Under the pieces are notes generated by a model that saw nothing but the letters and a program-made list of their open reading frames with translations, made no database searches and was not told the DNA's origin. Below, in pieces: positions 12,765 through 30,669 of a stretch of 30,669 bases of DNA. Every line of letters starts with the position of its first letter. Positions within the stretch are counted from its first letter, which is position 1. The stretch is from positions 1 to 30,669 of IMG/VR virus record IMGVR_UViG_3300027608_000102, one strand, 5' to 3'. Position numbers and translations under genes: made by a program. The DNA comes from a virus.

Positions 12765-12795
12765 CCACAGTGGACCGACCCACTGTGGGTCTTTT
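12762..12795 (+). terminator. Intrinsic terminator of the structural/lysis operon
   Basis: A 12-bp stem (12762-12773 with 12780-12791, one T-G pair), a six-base loop ACCGAC and a TTTT run at 12792-12795 followed by ATTT form a classic rho-independent terminator for transcripts from the left. A transcript started at the embedded promoter would lack most of the 5' arm and so escape termination. Confidence 0.85.
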
Positions 12796-12809
12796 ATTTG
12801 GAGGGGAAT

Positions 12810-16804: not shown

Positions 16805-16943
16805 CGACGGAGACCAGGCGGGCGAGTGCCCATACTGCGGTCGATACCGGAACAGGATAGAGGGTGGAAAGATAAAGCCGTGCTACGAGTGGGAGAGAGA
16901 GAAGGAGAGGGGAAATGAAGAAGACGACAACGATGCCAAGTAA
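16764..16943 (+). CDS. Small zinc-ribbon-like protein overlapping two genes
   Basis: The 59-residue product starts at ATG 16764, supported by GGAGG upstream. It contains ECPYCGRYRNRIEGGKIKPCYEWE, a C-x2-C with a third Cys, and a highly charged tail (EREKERGNEEDDNDAK). It overlaps the preceding gene by 41 bases and the helicase by 29, in different frames. The shared DNA with the helicase start partly explains the skewed tail composition. It is probably real because of the ribosome site and the CxxC, but could be a chance frame. Confidence 0.5.
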   Translation: MIALISSGLSTGPDDGDQAGECPYCGRYRNRIEGGKIKPCYEWEREKERGNEEDDNDAK

Positions 16944-18216
16944 TACAGACGCCGAGCGTTCGCTGTTGGGGTCTATCCTCATAGATCAGGATGTACTCAA
17001 CGACATAGAGCTAGACCCTTCGATGTTCTGGGATCGCCGTAACTGTTTGGTTGCCGACGCGATCAAGCAAGTGCATGTGACTAATCAGGCCGTAGACGTG
17101 GTGACGGTTAGCGACCAGCTCGCAATAGGTGGACACGTCGATGACATCGGCGGACTCACGTACCTTAACGACCTTACCACCAACACCCCTACATCCATCA
17201 ACGCTTCCAGCTACTTCGAGATCGTAGAGCGTATGGCAATGCTTAGAAGCCTATCTAAGGCAGGGTCCAGGATAGTAGAGGTAGCTCAGTCATCACAGGA
17301 AGATGCCACCATTGCACTTGACGAAGCTGAGCGCATCCTATTCCAGGTTGGAAGCCGACGACGTGGTGCCAGGTGGTCAGACGCTGGCGACCTAATGCGA
17401 ATCACCCAGGGCAGGATAAACTCCATAGCTACTTCAGGTGTTCGCATCGGCGTTCCGAGCGGCATCTCTCAGATAGACGCAGTAACCGGAGGTTGGCAGA
17501 AGTCCGACCTAGTTATCCTCGCGGCTCGGCCTAGCGTAGGCAAGACGGCTCTTGCTACGACCATGGCATACAACGCAGCTACGGTTGGTAGGAAGGTAGC
17601 TATCTTTTCTATTGAGATGAGCGCTGAGCAGGTTGGTGCCCGGCTTCTATCCGCTGCTAGTGGCATACCAATACAGGCAATTAGGCACGGAGGACTAGAC
17701 ATGATGCAGCTGGTTGAGCTGGACCAGGCGGCACAGAGGGTTTCAAAGATGGGTATATACGTTGACGACTCTCCCACTGCATCGCCATCTGTGGTTCGAA
17801 GCAAGTGCAGGAAGCTGATCGCAGACCAGGGCGTGGACTTGATCATCGTAGATTACCTACAGCTCATGAGCGCAGACAAGACCAACAAGGACGGCAACAG
17901 GGTTAACGAGGTGTCAGAGATAAGCCGTGGTCTTAAGGCACTGGCACGAGAGATGGACGTACCTGTCATAGCGCTCTCTCAGCTGAGCCGAATGTCTGAG
18001 TATCGTGAGAGCGGAGAGCCCAGGCTGTCCGACTTGCGTGACTCCGGTGCAATCGAACAGGACGCCGACCTTGTGCTGATGCTGTGGCGAAAGTCAGACC
18101 CTGACTTCCTCGCAGCTACTGAGGTGGTTAGCTGCAAGATTGCTAAGCACCGCAACGGATCTACGGGCGTATGTGATCTGGACTTTGTGAAGAACACAGC
18201 AAGCTTTAGGGGGTAG
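16915..18216 (+). CDS. dnaB: DnaB-like replicative helicase
   Basis: This 433-residue hexameric 5'-3' helicase unwinds the replication fork. The N-terminal DnaB domain (AERSLLGSILID, then GGLTYLNDLTTNTPTSINASSY) covers residues 10-105. The C-terminal RecA-like ATPase has Walker A ARPSVGKT at 204-211, the catalytic Glu in FSIEMS near 234, Walker B LIIVDYLQLM at 309-318, the Q-motif LSQLSRMSEYR, and the arginine finger region KHRNGSTG at 411-418. It is complete and of near-normal length. No primase or loader was recognised beside it, so the phage probably uses the host primase or one outside the window. The start is ATG 16915, with AAGGAG and GGGG upstream; ATG 16933 is possible. Confidence 0.95.
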   Translation: MKKTTTMPSNTDAERSLLGSILIDQDVLNDIELDPSMFWDRRNCLVADAIKQVHVTNQAVDVVTVSDQLAIGGHVDDIGGLTYLNDLTTNTPTSINASSYFEIVERMAMLRSLSKAGSRIVEVAQSSQEDATIALDEAERILFQVGSRRRGARWSDAGDLMRITQGRINSIATSGVRIGVPSGISQIDAVTGGWQKSDLVILAARPSVGKTALATTMAYNAATVGRKVAIFSIEMSAEQVGARLLSAASGIPIQAIRHGGLDMMQLVELDQAAQRVSKMGIYVDDSPTASPSVVRSKCRKLIADQGVDLIIVDYLQLMSADKTNKDGNRVNEVSEISRGLKALAREMDVPVIALSQLSRMSEYRESGEPRLSDLRDSGAIEQDADLVLMLWRKSDPDFLAATEVVSCKIAKHRNGSTGVCDLDFVKNTASFRG

Positions 18217-18217
18217 C

Positions 18218-18487
18218 ATGTCTCTGAAGAAGATAGTTCTTGGTTGCTCGTGCGACACGGAAGTTTGTTCGCATCTCTACGAACAGATATCCGACATGTT
18301 GCAGGAAGGGTACGATGAAGGGTACGATGAAGGATGGAGGGACGCGTGGGAAGCAATCCGTGAGGGCCTAGCTGAGATGGGGTATAAGTCTGCCAAAGAC
18401 ATACGGATTCCGGAGCCACCCCCTCGCCCATCGACCAAGAAGAAGACGCGTTCGCCAGGTAAAAAGGAGAGAGACTTCATCAACTAG
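18218..18487 (+). CDS. Hypothetical protein, last gene of the rightward operon
   Basis: This 89-residue protein starts one base after the helicase stop, with AGGGGG upstream. The N-terminus has three Cys (GCSCDTEVCSHLYEQ), a short internal duplication GYDEGYDEGW from a DNA repeat of twelve bases, and an acidic helix. The tail is proline/lysine-rich (PEPPPRPSTKKKTRSPGKK). The charged end suggests nucleic acid or protein binding, but no family was recognised. A 14-bp stretch of its last codons recurs just after the stop. Confidence 0.65.
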   Translation: MSLKKIVLGCSCDTEVCSHLYEQISDMLQEGYDEGYDEGWRDAWEAIREGLAEMGYKSAKDIRIPEPPPRPSTKKKTRSPGKKERDFIN

Positions 18488-18502
18488 TGCGTTCGCCAGG
18501 TA
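18448..18502 (+). repeat. 14-bp direct repeat, GCGTTCGCCAGGTA
   Basis: Identical copies lie at 18448-18461 and 18489-18502, 41 bases apart, flanking the 3' end of the last rightward gene. They may be remnants of a small duplication. Confidence 0.8.
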
Positions 18503-18536
18503 GAAAGCCGATACGCGCAGTCTGTTTCAAAAAAAT

Positions 18537-18571
18537 ACCCCAATGCTGGGGAAGGAATCCAGCATTGGGGT
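18537..18571 (-). terminator. Terminator between convergent operons
   Basis: A perfect 13-bp stem (18537-18549 with 18559-18571) has a nine-base loop. On the minus strand the hairpin is followed by a TATTTTTTT run, a textbook intrinsic terminator for the leftward operon. For rightward transcription from the helicase operon there is no U-run, but the stem may still block read-through. Confidence 0.9.
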
Positions 18572-18577
18572 GTAGTA

Positions 18578-18904
18578 CTAGACCTCGCAGTCGTGGCCAA
18601 ACTCCCACTCTTCTGCATCGGCTCTCATGTATAGATCAAACTCTCTACCACATTCAACGCATGTCTTTACTTTAGGCATGCTAAATCCGGCAGCATTCTC
18701 TAGGCATGCAATAGCGCAGTCCCTGACTGCTTGCGCATACTCGATCTGCTTAGCCTCTTCACCTGGGTAGTAGTCATAGAATGCAAAGTCTTCCACATCG
18801 TGGATACTTACGCCTGATATTTCTTGTACCCTGCGGTCTACATAGACTAGGAACTTATCGAAGTCTATCTTAATCGTCTGAGCTTCTGGTTGATTTGCTA
18901 GCAT
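18578..18904 (-). CDS. Hypothetical protein with C-terminal zinc-finger-like motif
   Basis: This 108-residue product starts at ATG 18904, with GGGAGG upstream; an earlier ATG at 18937 lacks this site. The middle is acidic and aromatic (VEDFAFYDYYPGEEAKQIEYAQ). The end has C-x2-C (CVECGREF) and later H-x-C (FGHDCEV), a complete four-ligand zinc site. It is the last gene of the leftward operon, just before the terminator. Function is unknown; small zinc-binding early proteins often bind host proteins or nucleic acid. Confidence 0.7.
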   Translation of the reverse strand: MLANQPEAQTIKIDFDKFLVYVDRRVQEISGVSIHDVEDFAFYDYYPGEEAKQIEYAQAVRDCAIACLENAAGFSMPKVKTCVECGREFDLYMRADAEEWEFGHDCEV

Positions 18905-19481
18905 GTTCTGCCTCCCTATGCTTATTGATTGTATCAATAACCTCGTCGACTAATGAGTCCAACTCCTTGAAGTCGAAGCCAATGTATCCTCCGCAGCCGT
19001 CTATGACATCAACGGACGAGTTCTTGCATGACTCGCATACTGTACGCTTGGTTATAGTCCATGCAATTACATTGCCACGCAGCAGATGGTTGTACTCGTT
19101 TACCATCTGCTCAAGCACCAGTTCCATGTATGCTGCATCACCTTCTATTGGTGAGTCTTGTTCAAGCACTGCGAATCCACACTGACCGCTATCATACGGA
19201 TCATGGAATGGATTAGTGCTAACACTTACATCACCGTGAGCCAGAAGATAGAGAGGTACATAGGACTTGGCTGCTGCCAGCATCTGATGCGCCAGTTTTT
19301 CCTCATCTTCATTTGCTGAGCTGATAGTTACATCAACCGGTATGTACCTGCTAGAGCCTGATGTAGCGTAGATCTTGAAGCCACGCTCATAGTCTGACGC
19401 ATCATACGAATCGTCATGGAATACTCGATACCCATACCCATCTTCGTACTCATGTGCATTGATCTCTCTCCAATCACTCAC
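18870..19481 (-). CDS. Hypothetical protein, 203 aa
   Basis: I chose GTG 19481, giving MSDWREINAHEY, because GGAGG lies seven bases upstream; ATGs upstream of it lie within the preceding gene. The N-terminal part is rich in Asp and Tyr with strands (YGYRVFHDDSYDASD, GFKIYATSG, YIPVDVTISS). A helix and an acidic segment follow, then C-x2-C (VCESCKNSS) with a later Cys in GCGGYIGFDF, which might form a zinc site. It has no recognised family. It overlaps its neighbours on both sides by 8 to 35 bases, as expected in this compact operon. Confidence 0.65.
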   Translation of the reverse strand: MSDWREINAHEYEDGYGYRVFHDDSYDASDYERGFKIYATSGSSRYIPVDVTISSANEDEEKLAHQMLAAAKSYVPLYLLAHGDVSVSTNPFHDPYDSGQCGFAVLEQDSPIEGDAAYMELVLEQMVNEYNHLLRGNVIAWTITKRTVCESCKNSSVDVIDGCGGYIGFDFKELDSLVDEVIDTINKHREAEHASKSTRSSDD

Positions 19482-19827
19482 GATTAGACCTCCATTCTTT
19501 CTCGTTGTCATCATAGATTGACTTAGCAATCTCACGCCAGTCTACCTGGTTTAGGTATGTTGTGACGGCATCTGCGACTGGCCCGTAATTTACTTCGTGC
19601 CAGTCATTGCTATCTTGATATACAAATGTATCTGTAAAATAATCTGAGATGAATTGTTCTGCATACGATAGGTATCCAGACTCATCCCATGTCCCTTCGT
19701 CAACGAACTGTTCTATCTGCTGCTCTAGCTGGTCGGACAATGCATCCGCTACACCGTCTACATTGTTGATCCATAGCATAGCATTCCATGTCTCATAGTT
19801 AGACCATCCGTTATACTTTTCGCACAT
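19474..19827 (-). CDS. NGWSNYETW-type small phage protein (DUF7249-like)
   Basis: The 117-residue product opens with YNGWSNYETWNAMLWINN, a signature seen at the start of many small proteins of phages and plasmids (DUF7249-like). An acidic helical stretch and a second aromatic block (YFTDTFVYQDSNDWHEVNYG) follow, ending with helix DWREIAKSIYDDNEKEW. The family has no established function to my knowledge. AGGAGG lies upstream of ATG 19827. It is the first gene after the tRNA in the leftward direction. Confidence 0.7.
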   Translation of the reverse strand: MCEKYNGWSNYETWNAMLWINNVDGVADALSDQLEQQIEQFVDEGTWDESGYLSYAEQFISDYFTDTFVYQDSNDWHEVNYGPVADAVTTYLNQVDWREIAKSIYDDNEKEWRSNRE

Positions 19828-19841
19828 GTTAGTCCTCCTAT

Positions 19842-19917
19842 TGGTCGGGGTGCATGGACTCGAACCATGAACCGCTCAGATATAAGCTGAGTGCTCTAAC
19901 CATTGAGCTACACCCCG
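19842..19917 (-). tRNA. tRNA-Ile(UAU) with encoded CCA
   Basis: A full cloverleaf can be drawn on the minus strand. It has acceptor CGGGGTG/CACCCCG, D-stem GCTC/GAGC, anticodon stem CTCAG/CTGAG around loop CTTATAT, a five-base variable loop, and T-stem CATGG/CCATG with loop TTCGAGT. Discriminator A and an encoded CCA follow, 76 bases in all. The anticodon TAT reads AUA. Most bacteria read AUA with a lysidine-modified CAU tRNA, so this phage tRNA avoids the need for that modification. AUA is fairly common in this phage's genes, which makes a translation-support role plausible. Confidence 0.95.
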
Positions 19918-19930
19918 CTGCTGGGCATGA

Positions 19931-19958
19931 GGGGGAGTGGTTCAATGCCCACTCCCCC
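19931..19958 (-). terminator. Hairpin between gene and tRNA
   Basis: A perfect 10-bp stem, GGGGGAGTGG with CCACTCCCCC, has an eight-base loop. It lies between the gene ending at 19973 and the tRNA on the minus strand. There is no U-tract, so it may be a weak terminator or a processing and protection structure before the tRNA. Confidence 0.7.
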
Positions 19959-19972
19959 AGACCGCCCGTTGA

Positions 19973-20413
19973 TTACTTGACGCCGCGCTTGCTGAGTTCG
20001 TTGCGATCCTTCAACTTGGCCGTAGCCCTGATGATAATCTCATACTCTGCGTTCTCGTACAAGTCCTGGAAATCGTTGCGGGTTTCATTGCCGCACTTGT
20101 CTGTTGCATTCCATGAGTTGCTTTCGTACTCATTGTACTCTGCAAACTCACGAGCCTGCTTATGGTATGAGTTCACACCAACTTCATCAAGCGCTGAGCT
20201 AAGGCTGGTTGCAATGTTCAACACTTTCATGTGTGTCTCTGCACTCCAACCATTGTTCTTAGCCATCTGCCTGCCAATCTCTGGCACTGCAGATGACAAC
20301 ACTTTCTGGAAGTTGTCTATGCTATTAAGATCAAAGCTAATGATTGACTCATAGTCCTTCAAGTCCTTGGCCTTAGGTGTACCATTCTTGAATGTCTTCT
20401 TTGCGTTAGCCAT
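19973..20413 (-). CDS. Hypothetical protein, 146 aa
   Basis: A good AAGGAGG precedes ATG 20413. The protein starts basic (ANAKKTFKNGTPKAKD), then shows amphipathic helices (SIDNFQKVLSSAVPEIGRQMA and MKVLNIATSLSSALDEVGV). A polar Asn/Glu/Tyr-rich middle follows, and a C-terminal helix IIIRATAKLKDRNEL. No motif was recognised. It overlaps the gene on its right by eight bases. A soluble, helical, early-type protein is all that can be said. Confidence 0.65.
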   Translation of the reverse strand: MANAKKTFKNGTPKAKDLKDYESIISFDLNSIDNFQKVLSSAVPEIGRQMAKNNGWSAETHMKVLNIATSLSSALDEVGVNSYHKQAREFAEYNEYESNSWNATDKCGNETRNDFQDLYENAEYEIIIRATAKLKDRNELSKRGVK

Positions 20414-20864
20414 TGTTTGTTTCCTCCTTAACTATCGCAGAGATCGAGTATGAACCAGTGCCATAATCGTACCCTACATAATACTCATCGCTAAGTCCAA
20501 GAATTGTTTGGGTATCATAGTCAAACTTAAACAACCTGTCTAAGATTTTACCAATATCCCTAAGAGAATTCTCATTCTTCTCGCTGATACCATCACCATT
20601 TACACCATCCTTGAGAAGGACATGCAGGTATGCGCTAACCTTAGCCAATTTAAAGCTTAGGTTTATGATGGACTTGTGTTGCTGCACATTGATAGAGTTA
20701 AATTCTACAATGTTATCAATGATGCTATCAATAGCATTGTATGCATCATCTGCTGCTGATTCTGCATACCCTGCCTCACGCACTACTGACTGTGCATAAT
20801 CTGAAGCATTGCTTGCTTCGCTGCGTGCATTACGCAGTTCTTCTAGTAGCTGCTCGCTATCCAT
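20406..20864 (-). CDS. Hypothetical helical protein, 152 aa
   Basis: ATG 20864 has AAGGAGG directly upstream. The first 60 residues are a long Ala/Ser/Glu-rich helix likely to form a coiled coil (LLEELRNARSEASNASDYAQSV). A second helical block INLSFKLAKVSAYLHVLL and an acidic, Tyr/Gly-rich C-terminus (YYVGYDYGTGSY) follow. Nothing identifies its role. The helix could mediate dimerisation. Confidence 0.65.
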   Translation of the reverse strand: MDSEQLLEELRNARSEASNASDYAQSVVREAGYAESAADDAYNAIDSIIDNIVEFNSINVQQHKSIINLSFKLAKVSAYLHVLLKDGVNGDGISEKNENSLRDIGKILDRLFKFDYDTQTILGLSDEYYVGYDYGTGSYSISAIVKEETNNG

Positions 20865-21072
20865 TTGATACCTCCTTACATGCATCACAACAATAGTCTA
20901 TATACACTGATGCGTGGGGACTCTTGTCCCTCTCCATCTCTTGCACCTTAGACCTGATAGTTTCCACATCACCCATAATAAGTGTACGGAATATCTGATC
21001 CGGCTGCTCAATGAATGTAACTACATCAACCTCTGCTCGATGGTTAACACCATCACATTTTGATTCTGTCAT
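20857..21072 (-). CDS. Small protein with CCxxC
   Basis: This 71-residue protein has an acidic, strand-rich body (AEVDVVTFIEQPDQIFRTLIMG), a helix (VETIRSKVQEMERDK) and YIDYCCDACKEVSNG at the end. Two to three Cys plus an upstream Cys-His (KCDGVNH) could bind zinc. Its ATG overlaps the previous TAG/TAA region by one base. The family is unknown. Confidence 0.65.
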   Translation of the reverse strand: MTESKCDGVNHRAEVDVVTFIEQPDQIFRTLIMGDVETIRSKVQEMERDKSPHASVYIDYCCDACKEVSNG

Positions 21073-21512
21073 TAGTTTCCCCTCTCATCATCGTTTGACT
21101 TGGATGAGTTTCTTACAATCCTGATGGCTTCTTGAAGCATTTCTTCAGGTGTTTTACCTCCTTCTTTAGTCCTTTCGATTGGGTCATTCATCAACCTATC
21201 ATCAATTGGCTCTGCTCCCATAACATCAGCCAACTCAGTACCTACCATGAATGCCAAGCGCTGGTTGATTGAGAACAGTTTAGCAACTGCCTCAGCCATC
21301 TCTTTCTTGACATATTCACGGTCCTCACCTCTCTCAACCAGTTCATCGACGATCTCTTTGAAGTACTCTGGGTACGCATCAAGTATCTTGATAGGGTTGT
21401 TGATGATGTGATAGCTTGTTTCTATGATCGTTCTAAATGCTGACATGTGTAGCCTAGCATCTTCCCAATTTCCAAACGCTGCATTGATCTTTAGTTCTAC
21501 ATTGTCTTCCAT
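21072..21512 (-). CDS. Hypothetical helical protein, first gene of its unit
   Basis: I place the start at ATG 21512 (MEDNVELKIN), which has AGGAG upstream. The longer frame from 21590 runs through the conserved leader hairpin and is unlikely. The protein has 146 residues and is almost wholly helical (WEDARLHMSAFRTIIETSYHII, EYFKEIVDELVERGEDREYVKKEMAEAVAKLF), with a polar, charged C-terminus. It heads the transcription unit that runs left to the tRNA region. Function was not recognised. Confidence 0.65.
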   Translation of the reverse strand: MEDNVELKINAAFGNWEDARLHMSAFRTIIETSYHIINNPIKILDAYPEYFKEIVDELVERGEDREYVKKEMAEAVAKLFSINQRLAFMVGTELADVMGAEPIDDRLMNDPIERTKEGGKTPEEMLQEAIRIVRNSSKSNDDERGN

Positions 21513-21534
21513 GATCTCTCCTATTCTCTTTACA

Positions 21535-21547
21535 TACGAGGGAGTCA
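21535..21547 (-). promoter_or_regulatory. Leader element copy 1, TGACTCCCTCGTA
   Basis: One of four copies of a 13-bp motif found only in leftward leader DNA. On the minus strand it is preceded by TGGGGG (near 21557-21552), which can pair with its CCC, and ends 22 bases before ATG 21512. Confidence 0.7.
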
Positions 21548-21586
21548 TTAGTGCCCCCACCAACAAGAAACCAACCCGTGGGCAAA

Positions 21587-21605
21587 GCATTCGCTTGGTA
21601 CTACA
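21587..21605 (-). repeat. 19-bp inter-unit element copy 1
   Basis: On the minus strand this reads TGTAGTACCAAGCGAATGC and matches 17 of 19 bases with the copy at 22913-22931. It lies just past a terminator hairpin and about 75 bases upstream of ATG 21512, a suitable position for a promoter or operator of the leftward unit. Confidence 0.65.
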
Positions 21606-21623
21606 TGCCCTCTGTGGTTGGGA

Positions 21624-21655
21624 AGTCTGGAGGGCTGCCTCTTACCCTCCAGACT
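21624..21655 (-). terminator. Hairpin terminator after the 152-residue protein gene
   Basis: A perfect 11-bp stem, AGTCTGGAGGG with CCCTCCAGACT, has a ten-base loop. It starts seven bases past the stop at 21663 on the minus strand. No U-run follows. Confidence 0.8.
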
Positions 21656-21662
21656 GTTGATA

Positions 21663-22121
21663 TTACCAGACTAGGAAACCATCCAGCGTTGAGGCAATCT
21701 CCATATACTCAATGAACTCTTCTACTAATGCTGTCTGTGCTATATCTTGACCATAGTACTGGATCAACTGCAGTATAGTCAAGATATCTTGTGTCTTGAC
21801 ATGCCTGCCTTCATTCCAGCTGATCGCATCAATGAATGCTAGATACTTCTCACCTATTATGTTGCGCTGATCTTCTGGCATAGCATTGAATAGATCTACG
21901 AAATAAGTGCGTACTTCCTGCATACCCCAGATGTTAGACCTGAAGTATACTGCCGGTTCACCTATGTACTTAGAAGCATAATCAATAGACTTACCCCTGG
22001 TATACAACTCATCTACTGTAAGCGCCTTGTCCTGCTCAAATAGGTAGTTGTACCCGTACTTGCGAGCGAATCGCTCTGCTAGTACGGGGTCTGGCTGGCT
22101 GGTATATATGTCATACCCCAT
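21663..22121 (-). CDS. Hypothetical protein, 152 aa
   Basis: The product starts MGYDIYTSQPDPVLAERFARKYGYNYLFEQ and continues with acidic, aromatic helices (VRTYFVDLFNAMPEDQRNIIGEKYLAFID, ILTILQLIQYYGQDIAQTALVEEFIEYME). No motif was recognised. Its ATG overlaps the TAA of the tiny membrane gene at 22121-22240 by one base. GGAGG is present in that gene's last codons and would serve as its ribosome site. A terminator hairpin follows the stop. Confidence 0.7.
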   Translation of the reverse strand: MGYDIYTSQPDPVLAERFARKYGYNYLFEQDKALTVDELYTRGKSIDYASKYIGEPAVYFRSNIWGMQEVRTYFVDLFNAMPEDQRNIIGEKYLAFIDAISWNEGRHVKTQDILTILQLIQYYGQDIAQTALVEEFIEYMEIASTLDGFLVW

Positions 22122-22240
22122 TACCTGCCTCCATTCTTAATATAATCTACTACATTGTATGCTATAAGGGCAATGAATACCCCTACTGCTGTAGTCAATA
22201 CATCCCAAGCTGCCTCGATTAAGAATAGTTCACCGCTCAT
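22121..22240 (-). CDS. Tiny single-span membrane protein, 39 aa
   Basis: The 39-residue frame reads MSGELFLIEAAWDVL and then a hydrophobic segment TTAVGVFIALIAYNVV, ending DYIKNGGR. That is one membrane span with a charged tail. The ATG overlaps the upstream TGA as ATGA, AAGGAGG lies just upstream, and its stop overlaps the next ATG, so it is an integral member of the operon despite its length. Tiny membrane proteins of phages can be holin-like, inhibitors of host membrane enzymes, or superinfection-exclusion factors. None can be chosen here. Confidence 0.65.
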   Translation of the reverse strand: MSGELFLIEAAWDVLTTAVGVFIALIAYNVVDYIKNGGR

Positions 22241-22350
22241 TGGTTGTCCTCCTTCTTAACTATGGCTAGATAGATTACCACGACCCAGGCTGCTACCATA
22301 CCTGTGATAGCACCCATTAGAAAGCTGCTAGTTCCAAAGTCCTCACACAT
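22237..22350 (-). CDS. Tiny single-span membrane protein, 37 aa
   Basis: The 37-residue frame reads MCEDFGTSSFLMGAITGMVAAWVVVIYLAIVKKEDNQ. It has an acidic N-terminus, a hydrophobic span of about 20 residues (positions 11-30) and a KK-rich end. The ATG overlaps the previous gene's stop, and GGAGG lies eight bases upstream. Its last codons contain the AAGGAGG used by the next gene. The span and coupling argue for a real gene, and it forms a pair with the neighbouring 39-residue protein. Confidence 0.65.
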   Translation of the reverse strand: MCEDFGTSSFLMGAITGMVAAWVVVIYLAIVKKEDNQ

Positions 22351-22573
22351 TATCAACCTCCATATTAAGGTATCTTAACGCTTCATACTCGACTGCAATC
22401 TGCAGCCGCCGGTTAAGATCCCAGTCTAATAGGCGCTTAGGCGCCCAGTTGATCTGTTCACCCCTGAAGAACGCTTCCTTATGTAACGCACATAGTTTCT
22501 TATTACCTGATACTACTCTACTAAAAGGATAGAGACATAGGGTATGGTCATAGGCCATTGCTTCACATCTCAC
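22343..22573 (-). CDS. Hypothetical basic protein, 76 aa
   Basis: It begins MRCEAMAYDHTLCLYPFSRVV and has CALHKEAFFRGEQ further on. Two Cys with nearby His could make a small metal site of the C-x..-C-x2-H type. The end is helical (RRLQIAVEYEALRYLNME). The ribosome site is the GGAG in AAGAAGGAGATC upstream, at a longer than usual distance; ATG six codons inside is an alternative start. It overlaps the previous gene by eleven bases. Function is unknown. Confidence 0.6.
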   Translation of the reverse strand: MRCEAMAYDHTLCLYPFSRVVSGNKKLCALHKEAFFRGEQINWAPKRLLDWDLNRRLQIAVEYEALRYLNMEVDNV

Positions 22574-22748
22574 GCTTGATCTCCTTCTTCTTTGTTACAA
22601 TCTTCTCATAACTTGGTAGTTCTGATTCATTGAGGAACTCATTGAACAGGTCTAGGTATCCTACATCCTCGGTAATAGGTGCTGGATTCTTATGGTCACA
22701 GCAGTCGTTATAGTAACAAGCTGCACAACCACATACCTTACAGTCCAT
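22563..22748 (-). CDS. Cysteine-rich small protein, first gene of its unit
   Basis: From ATG 22748, with AAGGAG upstream, the 61-residue product begins MDCKVCGCAACYYNDCCDHK: seven Cys and a His in 20 residues, enough for one or two zinc sites. An acidic helical part (YLDLFNEFLNESELPSYEKIV) and a basic end follow. A longer frame from 22859 would run through the leader hairpins and is unlikely. Cys-rich early phage peptides are commonly host-interaction factors, but no specific role can be stated. Confidence 0.65.
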   Translation of the reverse strand: MDCKVCGCAACYYNDCCDHKNPAPITEDVGYLDLFNEFLNESELPSYEKIVTKKKEIKREM

Positions 22749-22775
22749 TGTCAACTCCTTATCTGCTATGCTGTC

Positions 22776-22788
22776 TACGGGGGAGTCA
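22776..22788 (-). promoter_or_regulatory. Leader element copy 2, TGACTCCCCCGTA
   Basis: This is the second copy of the 13-bp motif (one base differs). On the minus strand GGGGG upstream pairs with CCCCC (22794-22798 with 22779-22783, ten-base loop). The motif ends 27 bases before ATG 22748. Confidence 0.7.
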
Positions 22789-22809
22789 AGATACCCCCAG
22801 AAGGGAGCA

Positions 22810-22832
22810 CCCGTGAGCACGGGGTAATACCC
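22810..22832. repeat. Adjacent palindromes in the leader of the Cys-rich gene
   Basis: CCCGTG-AG-CACGGG at 22810-22823 and GGGTA-A-TACCC at 22822-22832 overlap by two bases. With the hairpin at 22779-22798 they make the leader highly structured. They may be protein-binding sites or RNA folds. Confidence 0.6.
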
Positions 22833-22888
22833 AACCTCCACCCTTGATACCCATCCCACCCCTTATCATTACCAACCATCCAACTACA

Positions 22889-22931
22889 AATGCGTTCGTA
22901 TCCAAGTCTAACGCATTCGTTAGGTACTACA
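22889..22931 (-). repeat. 19-bp inter-unit element copy 2 with inverted repeat
   Basis: The element TGTAGTACCTAACGAATGC (minus strand, 22931-22913) matches copy 1 at 17 of 19 bases. It partly overlaps a perfect inverted repeat AATGCGTT / AACGCATT (22889-22896 and 22910-22917). It lies directly past the GC-rich hairpin that ends the previous unit. Confidence 0.65.
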
Positions 22932-22940
22932 GTATACCCT

Positions 22941-22980
22941 TAGGGGGTTGGGGGAAGGGATTGCTCCCCTCCCCCCCCTA
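22941..22980 (-). terminator. GC-rich hairpin after the first leftward gene
   Basis: G-runs at 22943-22959 face C-runs at 22966-22978 around an ATTGCT loop, with outer TAGGGGG/CCCCCTA pairing. It begins right after the stop at 22982 on the minus strand. Termination or attenuation is likely; there is no U-tract. Confidence 0.7.
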
Positions 22981-22981
22981 C

Positions 22982-23311
22982 CTACTTGGCTACTGGGGTG
23001 ACTTCAGATGGGAAGACATAGGTCTTGCCCGTCTGTCGGTTGTAGGTGACCTCATCTGCGAGCACCTCTACCTCCTGCCACTGGAGTTCCTGCACCTTGG
23101 CAATGAGGTCACCAGTTGCGATGGCTGTCCAGTAGTTCTTTACTGATCCATCTGCCTTGCGCTCCTCAATCTGGAACACCAACTGTGGCTCTCCAGTGTT
23201 GGGGTTGTATCGCGTGCGCATAGACTCAAACGAGCCTGCGCGCACATTGCCCGCTGCGAGCGGGTGGTTATGGGTTCCCTGAATGAGAGCCCTGTTCATT
23301 CGTCCTTCCAT
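22982..23311 (-). CDS. Hypothetical beta-rich protein, first leftward gene
   Basis: From ATG 23311, preceded by AGGAAGGAAGG, it is 109 residues. The upstream ATG at 23338 lies inside the leader hairpin. The protein is strand-rich (LVFQIEERKADGSVKNYWTAIATG, QEVEVLADEVTYNRQTGKTYVFPSEV) with an N-terminal GTHNHPLAAGNVRAG. The pattern would suit an OB-like or small barrel fold, perhaps nucleic-acid binding, but no family is clear. As the promoter-proximal gene of the leftward arm, set apart by its own terminator, it is probably expressed early and at a high level. Confidence 0.65.
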   Translation of the reverse strand: MEGRMNRALIQGTHNHPLAAGNVRAGSFESMRTRYNPNTGEPQLVFQIEERKADGSVKNYWTAIATGDLIAKVQELQWQEVEVLADEVTYNRQTGKTYVFPSEVTPVAK

Positions 23312-23327
23312 CGGACACCTTCCTTCC

Positions 23328-23344
23328 TGCGGGATCAACCCGCA
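23328..23344 (-). promoter_or_regulatory. Hairpin just upstream of a ribosome site
   Basis: A perfect 6-bp stem TGCGGG/CCCGCA with a five-base loop lies directly before the AGGAAGGAAGG of the first leftward gene, and directly after leader element copy 3. It may protect the 5' end or modulate translation. Confidence 0.6.
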
Positions 23345-23346
23345 TA

Positions 23347-23359
23347 TACGAGGGAGTCA
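23347..23359 (-). promoter_or_regulatory. Leader element copy 3, TGACTCCCTCGTA
   Basis: On the minus strand GGGAG (23368-23364) pairs with CTCCC (23356-23352) around a seven-base loop. The motif ends 35 bases before ATG 23311, with the 6-bp hairpin and the ribosome site between them. Confidence 0.7.
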
Positions 23360-23438
23360 CTTGCTCCCCCACAAACACACAGCAAGATAGGGGGTCTCGC
23401 GTTCGTACTGTCAGATAGCCGAGGGGCTACGCGTCTTT

Positions 23439-23451
23439 TACGAGGGAGTCA
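23439..23451 (-). promoter_or_regulatory. Leader element copy 4, TGACTCCCTCGTA
   Basis: This is identical to copies 1 and 3 over 13 bases. It lies 92 bases upstream of copy 3 and forms the left edge of the large palindrome. Confidence 0.7.
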
Positions 23452-23496
23452 CTATTTTGCCAAAGGGGGTCCCCCTATGGCTTTATAGTGACCCCC
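23444..23496. repeat. 53-bp interrupted palindrome
   Basis: The palindrome is centred on T23470. Outer arms GGGAGTCACTAT / ATAGTGACCCCC have one mismatch. A symmetric TTT/TTT gap follows, then GCCA/TGGC, an A/A mismatch, and AGGGGG/CCCCCT around a single T. About 21 of 26 positions pair. It could extrude as a cruciform or form a long RNA hairpin. Confidence 0.85.
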
Positions 23497-23508
23497 GTAC
23501 GGCGGGGG
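23492..23508. repeat. Hairpin overlapping the large palindrome
   Basis: A perfect CCCCCG/CGGGGG stem with loop TACGG. Its CCCCC (23492-23496) is also the right edge of the 53-bp palindrome, so the two folds exclude each other, as in an attenuator. Confidence 0.75.
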
Positions 23509-23586
23509 ATTACCCGGCCTGCCCGGAGCTGACACACCCATCTGATAAGGAAACTTAAGAATAAGAAACCTTAATGTGCCCTGCGC

Positions 23587-23606
23587 TTGACATGGGTGGA
23601 TATAAT
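23587..23606 (+). promoter_or_regulatory. Promoter-like element A: TTGACA-N8-TATAAT
   Basis: TTGACA at 23587-23592 and TATAAT at 23601-23606 are separated by only eight bases, too short for ordinary sigma70 use. The arrangement TTGACA-N4-TGGATATAA recurs at 29579. It lies 88 bases before the giant gene and points at it. Confidence 0.65.
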
Positions 23607-23607
23607 T

Positions 23608-23683
23608 AGAGGGTAATAAATATACCCTCTTAGATCTCGGTTCTAAAGGTTATAAATAGAGAGTCTAGACCCTCTTAGAGGGT
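23608..23683 (+). repeat. CCCTCTTAGA repeats and dyads in the giant gene leader
   Basis: AGAGGGTA (23608-23615) faces TACCCTCT (23623-23630). The 11-mer ACCCTCTTAGA occurs at 23624-23634 and 23669-23679, the second within the perfect dyad ACCCTC-TTA-GAGGGT (23669-23683). They lie between the promoter-like element and ATG 23695, where a repressor or a translational control fold would act. Confidence 0.75.
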
Positions 23684-23694
23684 GCAAGGGGACG

Positions 23695-26600
23695 ATGGAT
23701 CAGAAAGACCTGCTAGCGAAGCTCCGCGAGGTGAACGAACAGATTGACGTTCAGCTCGAGGGGAAGGCGCCCTCGAAGCCCCAGACTCCAACACCAGCTG
23801 CTCCCGCGCCCGATCAGACCCCAGCTGCTGTCGCCCCCTCCGCTCCGGCAGCTGGGGCACTAACTGGAGTAGACCCTGAGGCCATCGCCAAGATCGCTCC
23901 TTCAGCTGGGGCGCCAACTCCTCAGCCAACGTCAGGTATCTACGAGGTATCGTCTGTAGGTGATTCCAGGTTCTCTGCCCTAAACGCAGTACTCTCAGAC
24001 GGCATGACAATCGAAGAGAAGTACAACATGGAGATCAAGGGATACATCGATCAGATTGGCGAGGCGGAATACGCCAAGGCCATGACGATGAAGCCACGAG
24101 CTAGGTACGATATCCTGGTTCGGCCATTCAAGAGCAAGGACCCAATCAACGGAAAGTCAATGGAGCAGGCGGTCATTGAGTATGACCTTCTATGGGAGCA
24201 GTGGGCAACAGAAAACCCAGATCTTATTGACGACCTGGCAAAGAAGTCAGCCGGCAAAAGACTTAACGACAAGTTTGCAACTAAGCCAGGCAGGCCGTCC
24301 CAGGCACGATCCCTAGAGAAGATCCTTGCCAAGCGCGCTACAAGCCCCGATATGGCCCAGGGTGGGGCCCAGACACCACCTCCAGGGGAAACTCCTGCCA
24401 GCGTGGCTCCTAGGGCCATTTCCAAGCCATCTGGAAGGGCACTGGTGCCCCAGGAAATCCTTGCCACCCCAGAAGCCAGGGCAGAGGGACTAGACGCTAA
24501 CGGATTCATCAACGACGGGAACACACCACTTCCTGGGCAGATCCCAGCCTATGATTCCTGGATAGCCAAGCAGCCAGAACCGCAGCTAGCCCCCGAAAAA
24601 ATGACAACGGCGGCTACCCCCGTAGAACCTACCAGCCCACGAACGTGGGGCAGCGTCGCCAAGCGGGCGCGAGGTGAGCGGGGCGATATCCCGGACACCA
24701 CCATCGACAGGAAGATCAAGAAGGCGGTACGCGAGTTCCAGTCTGAGCCGCACACCCTGTACGACCGGGTGTACGATCTCTACGTGCGAGCAGTGGACCG
24801 TGGAACTGGCCGACTGACAAGCGAAAAATTCAAGGCGTTTGATTCGGTAACCGATCCGCAGCACCAGAACCGTGGGCGCCAGGCGGTGCGAGCATCGCTG
24901 CTCCCGCTGATGCTGAACTACGTGAAGCCAACAGAGGACACGCCGGATATGAAGGCGCTCCGAAGGGAGTTCTATTCAATCCTTGGAGAAGCTGGTGGCG
25001 TTGATGAGCAAACCCTTACATTCGACAATCTAAGGTTTAGCAAGGACCCAATTGAGGCTGAGGGCATGAATGCTGCATTGGCCGCTGAAAGGCTTCGGAG
25101 CTCCCTCAATTCGGTAGAGGATCTCTACGGGCAGAGCAGGCTTCGCGCACTCCTACATCCGGATCATGCCCAGATCGTAGGGTACCTTGCCCGTGAAATC
25201 GAGGCAACGGCGACCGAGCTGGTAGACGGGACAAGGGCAGAGTTCAACCCGGCCGGGGCGGAGACGTATATCCAGAGCAAGGCGACAGAGAAGAACCGAG
25301 CTCTTCTAACCCCAGCAGATCTTGAGCTTCTTGGCATTACCGACGTAACGGCCGCAGACATCCACGAGATGACAACGGTGAATGGCGTAGAGCTGACGGC
25401 GAACCAGATCGCACGGTACCGAAGCGAAGCCTCACGAGGGACCAGACGATATGCTCTAGATGTTGCCGGGATCATCGACCCACGCTGGCAAGACGTAGAC
25501 GAGCGGGGGCTGGACTTGCAGGAAGCATTCCAGAACGACAAGCACCCTACCGCCGACACGTCGGCTGGCGTGTCCTTCCACGTAACCTCCGACGCAACCC
25601 CAGGGAAGAACCGTAATATCATCAACGAGATTAAGGCAACCAAGGCAATGCGGGCATTCATGGTGGCTGAACTGGGAGAGCAGGTCGACATCCCTGGGCG
25701 AATTAGAGGGATGGCCATAGCGGCGGACCCATCGCTTCGAATTGCTAAAGACGCAACTAGCGTAGACAACAACCCGACTATTCGACTTAACCGAAGCATG
25801 CCGTACACACGCGACAGCGCTGTAGTCTATGACATGGCAGATAAGATCAGGGGGGAGCTCGCGTCACGACAGCTGGTGATGGTGCGAATGGGTACCGCCG
25901 ACGCTCGTGGGCAGGGTACCGTGGTTACAAGCGACAACAAGATCCACTACCTTGACGACGTATTCGTAATATTCGACGCAAGCGACGGTGCCGCAAAAGA
26001 CCTTTCCATCAAGACTGGAGGCTCGGTAAGCCAACCGTTCCGAGTCGGGGAAGAGATCAGGTACCCAGGCGGAGTGAAGGCCGGAGACTACGACGGAATC
26101 AAGTTCGACGTAGACCCGGTTGTCAACCAAGCGGTGATGCACACGATACCTCTACGCAAGACGTGGGGATCGGAGTTCAGGCTGGCCTACGTCCCGGCGA
26201 ACCTTGCCGAAGGGATGGAAAGCAAGCCAGTTGTAGATGACAATATCCGACCATCTCAATTTGGCCCTGCCAAGGACGCGATTCTAACCCACATTATTGC
26301 AGACCGTGGCATGTACCCAGATCAGGGAACTATGGCCGACGGGTACATTTACGGAGATGCATACGGGGACTTTGGACCAATATACAGCGAGGTTGAGAAG
26401 AACGAAGAGCAGGTACGAAGGCTTACCCCAGGCGAGGAAGAGGCCGCTTACCGAACGATGCGAACTATGGAAGACGAACAAATTGCCGGCGTAAGAGCTT
26501 CAGACGCAACCAGACCACAGCCGGAAGAGATTGAGGCGATGGGCAAGTTGCGAGAAACTGGCGGACAAGAAATGGAAACGGTCCGGAGGGACCTGACCCC

Positions 26601-29190
26601 AGAAGTCGAAGATAAGTCACAAAAGATCTTCGACGTTAAAGTTCGCCCAAAGGCACGGTACGATGCTGGCAACATCTACGCAGAGATGGACAACTCTCCG
26701 GCGTCACGAATTCCAAACGTCACAAAGGAGAACCCGTTCCGCGCACTCCGAAACCCAGACACTGTGGAGTTCGATCAGCCATCCCCAGAGGAGACGAAGC
26801 AGTTTAAGAAAATCGTTGGCGACATGATGTTCACGCTTCGCTACCTTTCGAATAAGAGCAACTGGTACTCCCCAAGGCTTAAGAGCGAAAAAATTACCAG
26901 CGCAATGCGAGAAGCAAATCTAAATCTTGATGGCACCAAGGAGATCCTGAGCATCATCAAGCCCATGGTCGGAGTCTTGGATGCAGAGGGGTTAGCCGAT
27001 GCAGAGGTAGAGTCTGTTTACCGAAAGAGGATTATCCCGTACTTTGCCGGGCTGGGGCTCGACGAGGAGTTCGCCAAGACCAGGCTCACAAAGCTCCCGG
27101 CACAGACCCCATTGCGATCAAGCGGCCGAGACGGAGCTGACATGTTCCTCCCAAAGCTACCTCCAACAGGGAACCAGCGCGTTGACGACATGGACGCTTT
27201 TGCTTACGAGCTCTACAAGGAGATCTCACGAGAAGACGCCCTCGCTAGAGCCGACGTTTCCGTTGACGAAGCTGCCACAGCAAAGCCTCAGGATGCAGTT
27301 GCCAGGGCAACTCTTAACTCAATTAAAGAAGCCATCGAGAGGAGAATACCAGCAGGTAAGAAGCGAGTTCTTGCCCAGGAGCTCCTCATCCACAACCTAA
27401 ACATTGAAGACGTAAAGAACGCTGCGAAGCCAGCGAACTTCTCCGGAACAGACGGAGAGTGGGTAAAGTACGTTTACAAAAACGGGTACGAAGTAATAGA
27501 CATAATCCGAGAGGAGGGCTTGTCTGCCAGGGGGACTGCGGCAAAGATAGAAGGCGTAACCAAGCTTTCTAAGTCATCAGGCCTTTCTAGGAAGCTTACC
27601 CCTCAAGACCGGGCTATTGGTATTGCCAAGGCATACGACTACTACACGGCACACGTTGCCGCCGACCTAGACGGTGACTCGGTTATAAAGGTGATGAACA
27701 CTGCCCTGTTTGGAGACGAGATGCAGTCTGTTATCGGCAGAAGTTTCTCAGAAACCAAATCTATCCTAATGAACGACGCCTTCGTAAACCTGGAAACAGG
27801 GGAGATCCTTAAGCCTAACGTAAGGGGCGACGGAATGAGGATGGTAAGCGATATTGAGATTAAGAACATGGCAAACCGTGCTGGTAGCGACATATACCCC
27901 TACACCCAGTTCGCCAGGAACAACGACCTTAAGTTTGCATACGACGCAAAAACTGGCGACATATGGCTTGTGAAGGTAAAGTCCTTCGATAAGACGGGTA
28001 AAATTACTGACATCGACAGCGAATGGAGCCCTAGAGGGTCATCAGAGTTTGCCCCGACTGCGGAAGAAGCGTCAGAAGAGCTGCGCAGGAACGGCGGATC
28101 AGACCTATTCGACGTTGTCCCAGTAGAAGAGGGCCGGTCTTGGATCTTAAAGGCGAAGAAAGACGGACAGTACGGAGGCCTTATGTCCACACTCTTCCCT
28201 CCAAACGTAGAAAGCAATCGAAAGATGCGCAATACGAACATGAGAAAAGCGCTTGACGCTGGGATCCAGGTGAATTTTGTAAGGCGAGCACTCGCCAAGA
28301 TGGACTCTGCTGGAGTAGAGATCGACTTAGACCGAAATACTGTGGATGTCCGTGAGGCAATCAAGGGAGACAAGATCGGGCCGTTTACCTACAAGCCAGG
28401 AATCCGTCCAGAGTATACGTTTAGGATTGGGGACCCGAACTTTGGGATTAGGCAGAGAATCGCTGAGGTTGCGGAGACGCAGCTAGTGGCAGAGGAGGCT
28501 CAGAAACCCCTAGTCGACCCACAGCTTGAGGCCGCCAGGGAGGCGGGGAGAATCCCGAGCCTGCAGGGGGAGCGATCACCAGAAACTGGACGTCTTGAAG
28601 AGGTTTCGTTCCGGCCAACTGGGACACGGCGCCTGACACTTACCCCAAGCGAGAAGGCGCTCATGCAGAGAATACGCACAAACGGCAGGCTTGGAGGACT
28701 TTTCGGCCTGGCGGGGGCCATCGGTGGGACGGGAGTAAACATCCTGAGCTCGGGAGCAAAGACACAGGAGGAGATAGCCTCAGTCGCCGGGCCATCGGCA
28801 GCCATCGAGGCGGCGGGCCTCATCAACCCAGCGCTAGGCGCTGCAGCTAACTTCGGGTGGACGGCAGCAAATCGTGGTGATATGCTACGAGCCCTTGTGA
28901 ACTTCGTTGGATCGGTCGGCGGGGGTATCCTGGGTGGCGCAGCAGGCACAATTGGAGGCCCACTAGGGTCCTTTGCTGGTGGTTTCGCAGGCAGTACGCT
29001 TGGGGCTACGGTAACGGATTCTATCTACTCGTCGATTGCCGGAAGCGACGGGACAACCCCAGCAGAAGTGTCATACGCCCCAGTCAACCCAGCTACGAGC
29101 GTGCCTATGGGGGCAACACCACCAACCGCGTCCCTAAGGAAGAACCTGGAAGAAGATCCACTTAAGAGACTGAAGGAGGAGTACAGATGA
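23695..29190 (+). CDS. Giant multidomain protein, 1831 aa, with DLDGD motif
   Basis: Function is not established. The N-terminus is Pro/Ala-rich and disordered (residues 20-80). A domain near residues 125-225 (RPFKSKDPINGKSMEQAVIEY, then NPDLIDDLAKKSAGKRL and PSQARSLEKILA) has the outline of DUF4326-like phage domains without their Cys/His. The middle is charged and mixed. Residues 1324-1328 are DLDGD in YYTAHVAADLDGDSVIKVMN. This resembles the metal-binding DxDGD of double-psi-barrel RNA polymerases, but also EF-hand or dockerin loops. The C-terminus (about 1664-1785) is Gly/Ala-rich and hydrophobic (LFGLAGAIGGTG, VGSVGGGILGGAAGTIGGPLG), membrane-active in appearance like the patch in the other giant protein. 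It is probably an injected virion protein or a polyvalent protein. AAGGGG precedes ATG. Confidence 0.65.
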   Translation: MDQKDLLAKLREVNEQIDVQLEGKAPSKPQTPTPAAPAPDQTPAAVAPSAPAAGALTGVDPEAIAKIAPSAGAPTPQPTSGIYEVSSVGDSRFSALNAVLSDGMTIEEKYNMEIKGYIDQIGEAEYAKAMTMKPRARYDILVRPFKSKDPINGKSMEQAVIEYDLLWEQWATENPDLIDDLAKKSAGKRLNDKFATKPGRPSQARSLEKILAKRATSPDMAQGGAQTPPPGETPASVAPRAISKPSGRALVPQEILATPEARAEGLDANGFINDGNTPLPGQIPAYDSWIAKQPEPQLAPEKMTTAATPVEPTSPRTWGSVAKRARGERGDIPDTTIDRKIKKAVREFQSEPHTLYDRVYDLYVRAVDRGTGRLTSEKFKAFDSVTDPQHQNRGRQAVRASLLPLMLNYVKPTEDTPDMKALRREFYSILGEAGGVDEQTLTFDNLRFSKDPIEAEGMNAALAAERLRSSLNSVEDLYGQSRLRALLHPDHAQIVGYLAREIEATATELVDGTRAEFNPAGAETYIQSKATEKNRALLTPADLELLGITDVTAADIHEMTTVNGVELTANQIARYRSEASRGTRRYALDVAGIIDPRWQDVDERGLDLQEAFQNDKHPTADTSAGVSFHVTSDATPGKNRNIINEIKATKAMRAFMVAELGEQVDIPGRIRGMAIAADPSLRIAKDATSVDNNPTIRLNRSMPYTRDSAVVYDMADKIRGELASRQLVMVRMGTADARGQGTVVTSDNKIHYLDDVFVIFDASDGAAKDLSIKTGGSVSQPFRVGEEIRYPGGVKAGDYDGIKFDVDPVVNQAVMHTIPLRKTWGSEFRLAYVPANLAEGMESKPVVDDNIRPSQFGPAKDAILTHIIADRGMYPDQGTMADGYIYGDAYGDFGPIYSEVEKNEEQVRRLTPGEEEAAYRTMRTMEDEQIAGVRASDATRPQPEEIEAMGKLRETGGQEMETVRRDLTPEVEDKSQKIFDVKVRPKARYDAGNIYAEMDNSPASRIPNVTKENPFRALRNPDTVEFDQPSPEETKQFKKIVGDMMFTLRYLSNKSNWYSPRLKSEKITSAMREANLNLDGTKEILSIIKPMVGVLDAEGLADAEVESVYRKRIIPYFAGLGLDEEFAKTRLTKLPAQTPLRSSGRDGADMFLPKLPPTGNQRVDDMDAFAYELYKEISREDALARADVSVDEAATAKPQDAVARATLNSIKEAIERRIPAGKKRVLAQELLIHNLNIEDVKNAAKPANFSGTDGEWVKYVYKNGYEVIDIIREEGLSARGTAAKIEGVTKLSKSSGLSRKLTPQDRAIGIAKAYDYYTAHVAADLDGDSVIKVMNTALFGDEMQSVIGRSFSETKSILMNDAFVNLETGEILKPNVRGDGMRMVSDIEIKNMANRAGSDIYPYTQFARNNDLKFAYDAKTGDIWLVKVKSFDKTGKITDIDSEWSPRGSSEFAPTAEEASEELRRNGGSDLFDVVPVEEGRSWILKAKKDGQYGGLMSTLFPPNVESNRKMRNTNMRKALDAGIQVNFVRRALAKMDSAGVEIDLDRNTVDVREAIKGDKIGPFTYKPGIRPEYTFRIGDPNFGIRQRIAEVAETQLVAEEAQKPLVDPQLEAAREAGRIPSLQGERSPETGRLEEVSFRPTGTRRLTLTPSEKALMQRIRTNGRLGGLFGLAGAIGGTGVNILSSGAKTQEEIASVAGPSAAIEAAGLINPALGAAANFGWTAANRGDMLRALVNFVGSVGGGILGGAAGTIGGPLGSFAGGFAGSTLGATVTDSIYSSIAGSDGTTPAEVSYAPVNPATSVPMGATPPTASLRKNLEEDPLKRLKEEYR

Positions 29191-29582
29191 GGTCGATCTC
29201 AGAGCTACAGGAATACGTAAATCGGTGCGCATCAGTACTAGGGCTTGGGCACTGGAAGGTAGAGGTATCAAAGCACCCGTGCGAGGAGGATAGCTGGGCC
29301 GACATAGAGGTAAGCCAAAACCTATGGACCGCTACCATGAGGATATCAGCCGAGTTCTGGGGCCTAGACAACCTAGAGAAGCGTCGAGTGATCGCCCACG
29401 AGCTACTACACATTCACTATGCCGGGGCAGAGCGCTCTCTGGAGGCCCTAGACGGGGTGATCGGCAGGGAGTCCTACGAGATCATCTCTAACGTCTTCGA
29501 CATCGAGGTGGAACGTGCGGCAGATGCCCTCTCCACCCATGTCTCCAAACTACTTCCTGGGATAGATGAGGTTATCTCTTGA
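29187..29582 (+). CDS. HExxH zinc metallopeptidase-like protein (SprT/M-type)
   Basis: This 131-residue protein carries RRVIAHELLHIHY, an HExxH zinc-binding and catalytic motif at about residues 71-75. A downstream Glu/Asp-rich helix (YEIISNVFDIEVERAADAL) could give the third ligand. Small phage proteins of this type look like SprT or minimal gluzincin peptidases. Substrates are unknown; processing of the giant protein encoded just before it, or of structural proteins, is an attractive but untested guess. The start has AGGAGG and overlaps the giant gene stop by four bases. Confidence 0.75.
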   Translation: MRSISELQEYVNRCASVLGLGHWKVEVSKHPCEEDSWADIEVSQNLWTATMRISAEFWGLDNLEKRRVIAHELLHIHYAGAERSLEALDGVIGRESYEIISNVFDIEVERAADALSTHVSKLLPGIDEVIS

Positions 29583-29598
29583 CAAGAATGGATATAAG
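29579..29598 (+). promoter_or_regulatory. Promoter-like element B: TTGACA-N8-TATAAG
   Basis: TTGACA at 29579-29584 and TATAAG at 29593-29598 have the same eight-base spacing as element A and share TGGA before the second box. It overlaps the stop of the peptidase gene and ends 23 bases before the tail-fibre ATG. Confidence 0.65.
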
Positions 29599-29621
29599 TG
29601 AGGGGAATTTAATGGAGGCCT

Positions 29622-30560
29622 ATGGCTAGACTACGCTTTGGACGCCCCATCTCGCTTCGCTGGAACGGACTCCTCATTGAGGGTCCGGCAAACACCGTGT
29701 TCGAGATCCCGGACGAGTACTACGAAGAGTTCAACGGAGACATAGGTCCAGTTGAGCCTACCCTTGTCTGGCTAGATCCAGACGAAGGATTCAGCCTCCG
29801 CACCCGTGTTACGCAGCTCGAACAGAGCGCAAACGGTATCCCACAGGCGCTCGTCGACTTCAAGGGCGACCTCCTTACAGCCACCGCAGACAACACTGTC
29901 ACCCGTCTTGGGGTAGGATCTAACGGCCAGATCCTTACGGCTAACTCAGCCACAGCCACTGGCCTTGAATGGCAGACACCAAGTAATGACATCCCAGTAT
30001 CTATCGTCGATGCCAAGGGAGACCTGGTCATCGGGACTGCCGACAACACCGTTTCACGCTTCGGCGTAGGCACAAACGGTCAGGTCCTCACCGCAGACTC
30101 TAACCAGGGGAATGGCCTAGTATGGACCACTCCAGCATCATCTGTTTCCCTTGGATCAGCCAGCCCAGCAGCACTAGGGGCGGCAGCCGCAGGCACAGCA
30201 GCCAGCGCCTCGCATGAAGACCACGTTCACCCAACCACAGGTCTCGAGCTTGCAGGAACCGCAGCGGCCGCAGTGGCTGCTCACAACCATTCCGGTACCT
30301 ACGACCCAGCTGGAACTGCAGCATCCGCAGTGTCTACGCACGCCGGTCTGTCGGACCCACATCCAGGGTACCTGACTCCAACTGAAGGCAACGCAGCATA
30401 CTCAGGGATTGCACACGCTCACGGCATTAATGATCTTAGCGACGTAACAGTTTCGTCTCCGATAAATGGACAGACTCTTTTGTATGACGGAGCGACGTCT
30501 CAATGGGTAAATACCACATCATCAGGAGGGGATGAATTCCTCTCCTACCTGTATTTTTAG
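29622..30560 (+). CDS. Tail-fibre-like protein with repeats and HxH motifs
   Basis: The 312-residue product has a globular N-terminus (about 1-70) likely to attach to the virion. Two copies of a 46-residue repeat follow, KGDLxxxTADNTVxRxGVGxNGQxLTAxS, at about 77-120 and 127-171. An Ala/Gly/Thr-rich shaft with HEDHVHP, HNHSG and HAGLSDPH motifs (residues 198-247) follows; such HxH sites bind metal in trimeric fibres. HAHGINDLSDV and GQTLLYDGATSQWVN near the end are the usual fibre-end repeats. It is probably a trimeric fibre or adhesin that touches the host surface. GGAGG lies close before ATG. Confidence 0.85.
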   Translation: MARLRFGRPISLRWNGLLIEGPANTVFEIPDEYYEEFNGDIGPVEPTLVWLDPDEGFSLRTRVTQLEQSANGIPQALVDFKGDLLTATADNTVTRLGVGSNGQILTANSATATGLEWQTPSNDIPVSIVDAKGDLVIGTADNTVSRFGVGTNGQVLTADSNQGNGLVWTTPASSVSLGSASPAALGAAAAGTAASASHEDHVHPTTGLELAGTAAAAVAAHNHSGTYDPAGTAASAVSTHAGLSDPHPGYLTPTEGNAAYSGIAHAHGINDLSDVTVSSPINGQTLLYDGATSQWVNTTSSGGDEFLSYLYF

Positions 30561-30577
30561 CTGAAGGGGTGATTTAG

Positions 30578-30669
30578 ATGGCACGCACGGAAAAGAAGTT
30601 TGGACATGCGACGAAGGTTCTCGGTGGTACTACTATCACCGAGCTAGTCCCAGTGTCGGCAAACCGAAG
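30578..30669 (+). CDS. Start of a further gene (3' partial)
   Basis: ATG 30578 has AAGGGG 9-14 bases upstream and opens a frame reading MARTEKKFGHATKVLGGTTI, continuing past the window edge. It follows the tail fibre gene by 17 bases, so another tail or fibre-associated protein is likely. Only 30 residues are visible and no family can be assigned. Confidence 0.6.
   Translation, partial: MARTEKKFGHATKVLGGTTITELVPVSANR

Follow-up and report, generated by a model that had tools for sequence, protein, structure and literature searches.

We describe here a pair of sequence elements that, to judge from their conservation and placement, very probably form a family-specific class of phage promoter. 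The window, by which we mean the whole stretch of DNA analysed, comprises a whole virus record (30,669 bases) and, judged by its gene order, is a permuted fragment of a circular-type family genome. The pattern TTGACA-N4-TGGATATAA, followed by a purine-rich stretch, is present at 23587 and 29579 (Table 1) with eight bases between TTGACA and TATAA in both elements, and an earlier note on this DNA was right both on this and in placing the copies directly before rightward genes, for a giant protein and a tail fibre; the same two borders carry the elements in relatives. In the window the ATG follows at a distance of 108 nt in class 1 and 43 nt in class 2, and the TGA stop of the 131-aa gene sits within the class-2 TTGACA. 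A third copy is absent from the window, even with up to three mismatches allowed. The giant gene product, probably a virion or ejected protein, is longer in the full-length relatives shown (2388-2761 aa) than in the window.

Table 1. Features of the window discussed in the text; the promoter role of the class 1 and class 2 elements is putative.
Feature	Position	Strand	Context
Candidate promoter element, class 1: TTGACA-TGGG-TGGATATAA-TTAGAGGG	23587-23613	+	Divergent intergenic region, 5' of the giant gene; matrix score 34.6 bits
Candidate promoter element, class 2: TTGACA-AGAA-TGGATATAA-GTGAGGGG	29579-29605	+	Gap separating the 131-aa gene from the tail-fibre gene; matrix score 33.4 bits
Giant gene, 1831 aa	23695-29190	+	Class-1 element upstream; weak match to tail-associated lysin family
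131-aa gene	29187-29582	+	Conserved; adjoins the class-2 element on its 5' side
Tail-fibre gene	29622-30560	+	Class-2 element upstream; ribosome-binding site and ATG within 43 nt of the element
238-aa protein	11090-11806		N-terminal helix-turn-helix and 3'-5' exonuclease-like domain; strong conservation across the family
Canonical promoter TTGACA-N17-TAAGAT, not the same element	12736-12764	+	Before Cas4-like exonuclease/ERF/DnaB genes
Leader inverted repeat AGAGGGTA...TACCCTCT	23608-23630	+	Begins inside the end of the class-1 element
TATAAATAG, partial conserved second TATA-like stretch	23651-23659	+	Class-1 leader; without TTGACA/TGGA
Second leader inverted repeat ACCCTCT-T-AGAGGGT	23669-23683	+	Just 5' of the giant gene

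Two copies within one window prove little alone: chance would yield this particular 15-base pattern 2e-5 times per strand, yet 81 of 200 windows simulated with a Markov model contain some repeated 6-N4-9 pair. That the pair is no accident is shown by its conservation, since related phages retain both copies, each at its own gene border. A major capsid protein search gave 58 related viral loci, and sixteen relative records from IMG/VR were examined at first, with further ones later; three of these (G014, G031, and G040; 41.0-43.0 kb) have ends that are identical over 123 nt and are thus apparently circular and complete. Class 1 again occupies the divergent intergenic region 5' of the giant gene, and class 2 the gap of about 40 nt from the conserved 131-aa gene to the tail-fibre gene, with the stop codon inside TTGACA. 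Orientation and place are constant, immediately 5' of the same two genes. The suggestion in the earlier note of promoter-like elements directed rightward and 5' of two gene blocks is well supported in this respect, both copies being conserved in those close relatives whose sequence spans the two borders.

A position-matrix scan of the window, the three circular genomes, and G027 finds exactly two sites per genome, scoring 33-44 bits, with the next-best score in these five sequences at or below 6.1 bits. Among the 28 distinct sites compared (13 class 1 and 15 class 2), TTGACA and TGGATA are invariant in all 28 with a variable intervening N4, positions 23-27 are all purine in 22, and the family consensus is TTGACA-N4-TGGATATAWATAG-purines. 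Alignment of 14 loci for each class shows an invariant class-2 core and a class-1 core that is invariant bar one position of the TATA part varying once, embedded in flanks that in class 1 have clearly diverged. All 15 class-2 sites have the ATG at an offset of 41-43 nt, with an AGGAG-like site between. Scanning IMG/VR for TTGACA-N4-TGGATATAWATAG returned 29 stretches, of which all but one (L252) fall within this phage family; these include L270/G043, which its giant and 811-aa-type proteins mark as a divergent member. The element is absent from the distant relatives G033 and G038 (57% capsid identity). The search for further copies proposed by the earlier note thus yields only two per genome scanned, albeit both conserved. 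We also note that a block TGATAAG...CTTA (window 23543-23558) is invariant in 14 aligned loci 5' of the class-1 TTGACA and may be another regulatory site.

The perfect TTGACA invites comparison with a -35 box, and the element resembles a sigma70/sigma-A promoter further in its A/T-rich box and in having a gene downstream, but the distance to TATA is eight nucleotides rather than about 17. No TATAAT-like -10 is conserved downstream of TTGACA at spacers of 14-22 in the 28 sites; at N17 no site has more than two of the six -10 letters, and the sequence there is mostly purine-rich. The TATA stretch itself lacks TANNNT in 27 of 28 sites, the sole exception being the first window copy, and no -35 lies consistently 15-19 nt upstream of TATA over the 28 sites. 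An extended -10, with TGN directly before TANNNT, also fails, the TG being two nucleotides and not one before TATA, and the sigma54 pattern GG-N10-GC occurs in none of the 28. A sigma70/sigma-A promoter is ruled out by the missing -10 at 15-19 nt and the lack of TANNNT in 27 of 28 sites, and the 28 sites likewise bear out the view that sigma70 could not read the element at standard spacing.

The same phages provide an internal control. The sequence TTGAC[AG]-N17-TAAGAT is present in the window and ten relatives, and its spacer differs in letters. The -10 shares bases with the stem of a hairpin that resembles a terminator (AAGATCCACAGTGG...CCACTGTGGGTCTTTT; promoter and hairpin together lie in window 12736-12796), but N17 is exact in all eleven, which points to an ordinary promoter read by the host. 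The idea that copies of the element would precede other rightward operons does not hold here, as a canonical promoter stands before this rightward block instead. By this comparison, the host would read promoters of the ordinary sigma-A type and the element would belong to a second class; two classes sharing TTGACA seem to exist within these phages. A probable second, non-sigma70 class in an uncultured phage family whose genomes also carry a canonical control is a warning against taking every perfect TTGACA for a -35 box. A consensus scan for sigma70 promoters and terminators over 15000-30669 gave no excess over shuffles.

We consider it reasonably likely that the element is a promoter for the giant-protein and tail/virion operons at which the host RNA polymerase is redirected by a phage factor. 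Rightward transcription of both operons would start at the two elements, and the recognition signal would be the invariant hexamers TTGACA and TGGATA, one helical turn apart. Both lie on the same helix face and loosely fit a directly repeated T-x-G-A-x-A that recurs after 10 bp; one protein could contact both, placing the TATAWATA stretch next to itself; this A/T stretch would melt easily and be followed by a purine start region. Synthesis would most likely be by host RNA polymerase, which a DNA-binding factor encoded by the phage, either sigma-like or an activator, would divert from ordinary -35/-10 promoters. Host polymerase redirected in this way is probably the reader, because no phage polymerase was found and by analogy with T4 (PMC1524935, PMC7403470). 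Two copies per genome are few for a dedicated transcription system, and with regard to the label 'late' we note that genes for replication are among those read rightward. Matches to sigma region 4 (PF04545) all stay below threshold and, in most genomes, fall on the helix-turn-helix that starts an exonuclease protein; a Pfam scan of 48 proteins contains no sigma-like protein, though a divergent gp55 could escape it. The best helix-turn-helix candidate, the start of the 238-aa exonuclease protein, is also found in G033, which is without the element. If these are promoters, they point to a transcription switch whose agent can be sought directly.

From the anatomy of the element only, transcription would start about 22-28 nt from its first base. 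In class 2 the ribosome-binding site starts at about position 32-36, which requires an RNA start ahead of about position 30; were a sigma-A -35 to dictate the start (about position 36), most of this site would be lost. In several class-1 leaders an inverted repeat begins at position 21-24 of the element, and several relatives, not all, form stems of different sequence near this point (GAACCC/GGGTT, AGAGACT/AGTCTCT), which suggests a class-1 transcript start near the leader inverted repeat. One alignment of the class-1 leader shows no covariation, because the stems are rearranged between genomes and not compensated in place.

Other repeats and structures are found elsewhere in the window. In the leftward region, TGACTCCCTCGTA occurs four times on the minus strand (21535-21547, 22776-22788, 23347-23359, and 23439-23451), one copy with one change, and relatives have other repeats there (GGTCTGCCCCCC in G031, G014, and G040, and GGTTCTCCCAAAG in G027), as if repeat and reader co-evolve. 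A strong GC-rich hairpin with a TTCG loop (6891-6918) lies directly 3' of the capsid gene, as in G031 and G040 with other stem letters, and CCAGGC-type repeats (10516-10575) make the 811-aa protein rich in proline and glycine close to its end. The only match in an Rfam search is a tRNA, and the window has a tRNA-Ile gene with anticodon TAT on the minus strand (19842-19917).

Several other configurations are to be weighed against a phage factor acting on host polymerase. Host RNA polymerase could act alone, through an alternative sigma or an unusual principal sigma, with no phage factor needed. An element invariant across divergent phages is what a fixed host reader would demand, the search for a phage reader gene found none, and a capsid search of the genome collection found no relative. 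However, the canonical TTGAC[AG]-N17-TAAGAT in the same phages makes the main host sigma look ordinary, and in bacterial genomes the element pattern has just three matches, in unrelated contexts, two of them resembling ordinary N17 promoters. We regard the host-alone explanation as unlikely. Similarly doubtful is that the element is read by an undescribed phage transcription factor or polymerase recognising TTGACA-N4-TGGATATAWATAG, the gene for which has no recognisable sequence relative; this would mean that TTGACA is used outside the -35 context.

It is quite improbable that the element is no promoter at all and instead either binds a regulator of the phage or directs DNA processing, preceding both operons by happenstance. 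Two hexamers one helical turn apart do look like a protein-binding site, and class-1 leaders contain inverted repeats, but the orientation is constant and always at gene starts, and the A/T box, the purines, and the class-2 ribosome-binding site follow downstream at a fixed distance.

The earlier note had raised a phage RNA polymerase, and a highly divergent one, perhaps inside a giant protein, could be envisaged in that the layout ending TATA-G is T7-like, with TATATATA, the GAGAG after it, and an upstream signal of 22 nt resembling single-subunit-polymerase promoters. Giant ejected polymerases exist (N4 vRNAP, PMC12633501), and the giant protein has a conserved DxDxD motif. This motif (AADLDGDS, at about residue 1324) was rejected as an RNA polymerase motif, since it lies in an EF-hand-like helix-loop-helix, albeit in a low-confidence model of the giant segment (pLDDT 45) for which fold matches are meaningless. 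Neither PF00940 nor a polymerase-like large protein was found in the relatives, circular genomes included. The single-subunit polymerase family PF00940 has no match in 17 records, a search with no positive control and weak alone, as none of 14 control genomes has PF00940 either; Pfam, PHROG, and PDB-profile searches of the large proteins also yield no RNA polymerase. A 1693-aa protein is predicted to be mostly helical, and the only fold that it matches strongly is that of a phage 'large polyvalent protein', not a polymerase. We therefore consider a phage polymerase very unlikely. That the pair is a chance repeat without function, unremarkable as a repeat of such size is within the window alone, is refuted by its conservation in related phages and can be set aside.

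Returning to host polymerase redirected by a phage factor, the element is new in sequence and in layout as far as checked, and ordinary in kind; the ten best-ranked of 131 papers retrieved for TGGATATA in a phage-promoter context include nothing relevant. T4 middle and Thermus phage P23-45 promoters retain the sigma70/sigma-A -10, which the element does not have. What it shares with them is the notion of a phage protein opening phage-specific promoters to host RNA polymerase, as in the sigma appropriation by AsiA and MotA, in which the MotA box replaces the -35, and in the extended -10 promoters of P23-45 (PMC7403470). The promoters of T7-type single-subunit polymerases, compared over -17 to +6 (PMC4496689), are similar in that the element abuts the presumed start and ends in TATA and then purines, an anatomy compatible with RNA beginning at the first purine past the TATA box, but the element is longer and of other sequence, and no such polymerase gene was found. 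Those of the jumbo phages phiKZ and AR9, such as the AR9 late AACA-N6-TA/G (PMC5312081), are likewise short, bipartite, and phage-specific near the start site, but these phages encode multisubunit RNA polymerases, and none is seen in the 42-kb phages here. In the T4 late promoter, TATAAATA at -13 to -6 is read by the phage sigma gp55 with gp33 and gp45 (PMC1524935). The invariant upstream TTGACA-N4-TGGA is outside the T4 late consensus, TATATATA is found instead in 11 of 15 class-2 sites, and no gp55-like sigma was found in these phages. However, the exact TATAAATA is present in six of 13 class-1 sites (and in none of 15 class-2 sites), and in both systems a phage-specific promoter class stands beside ordinary promoters.
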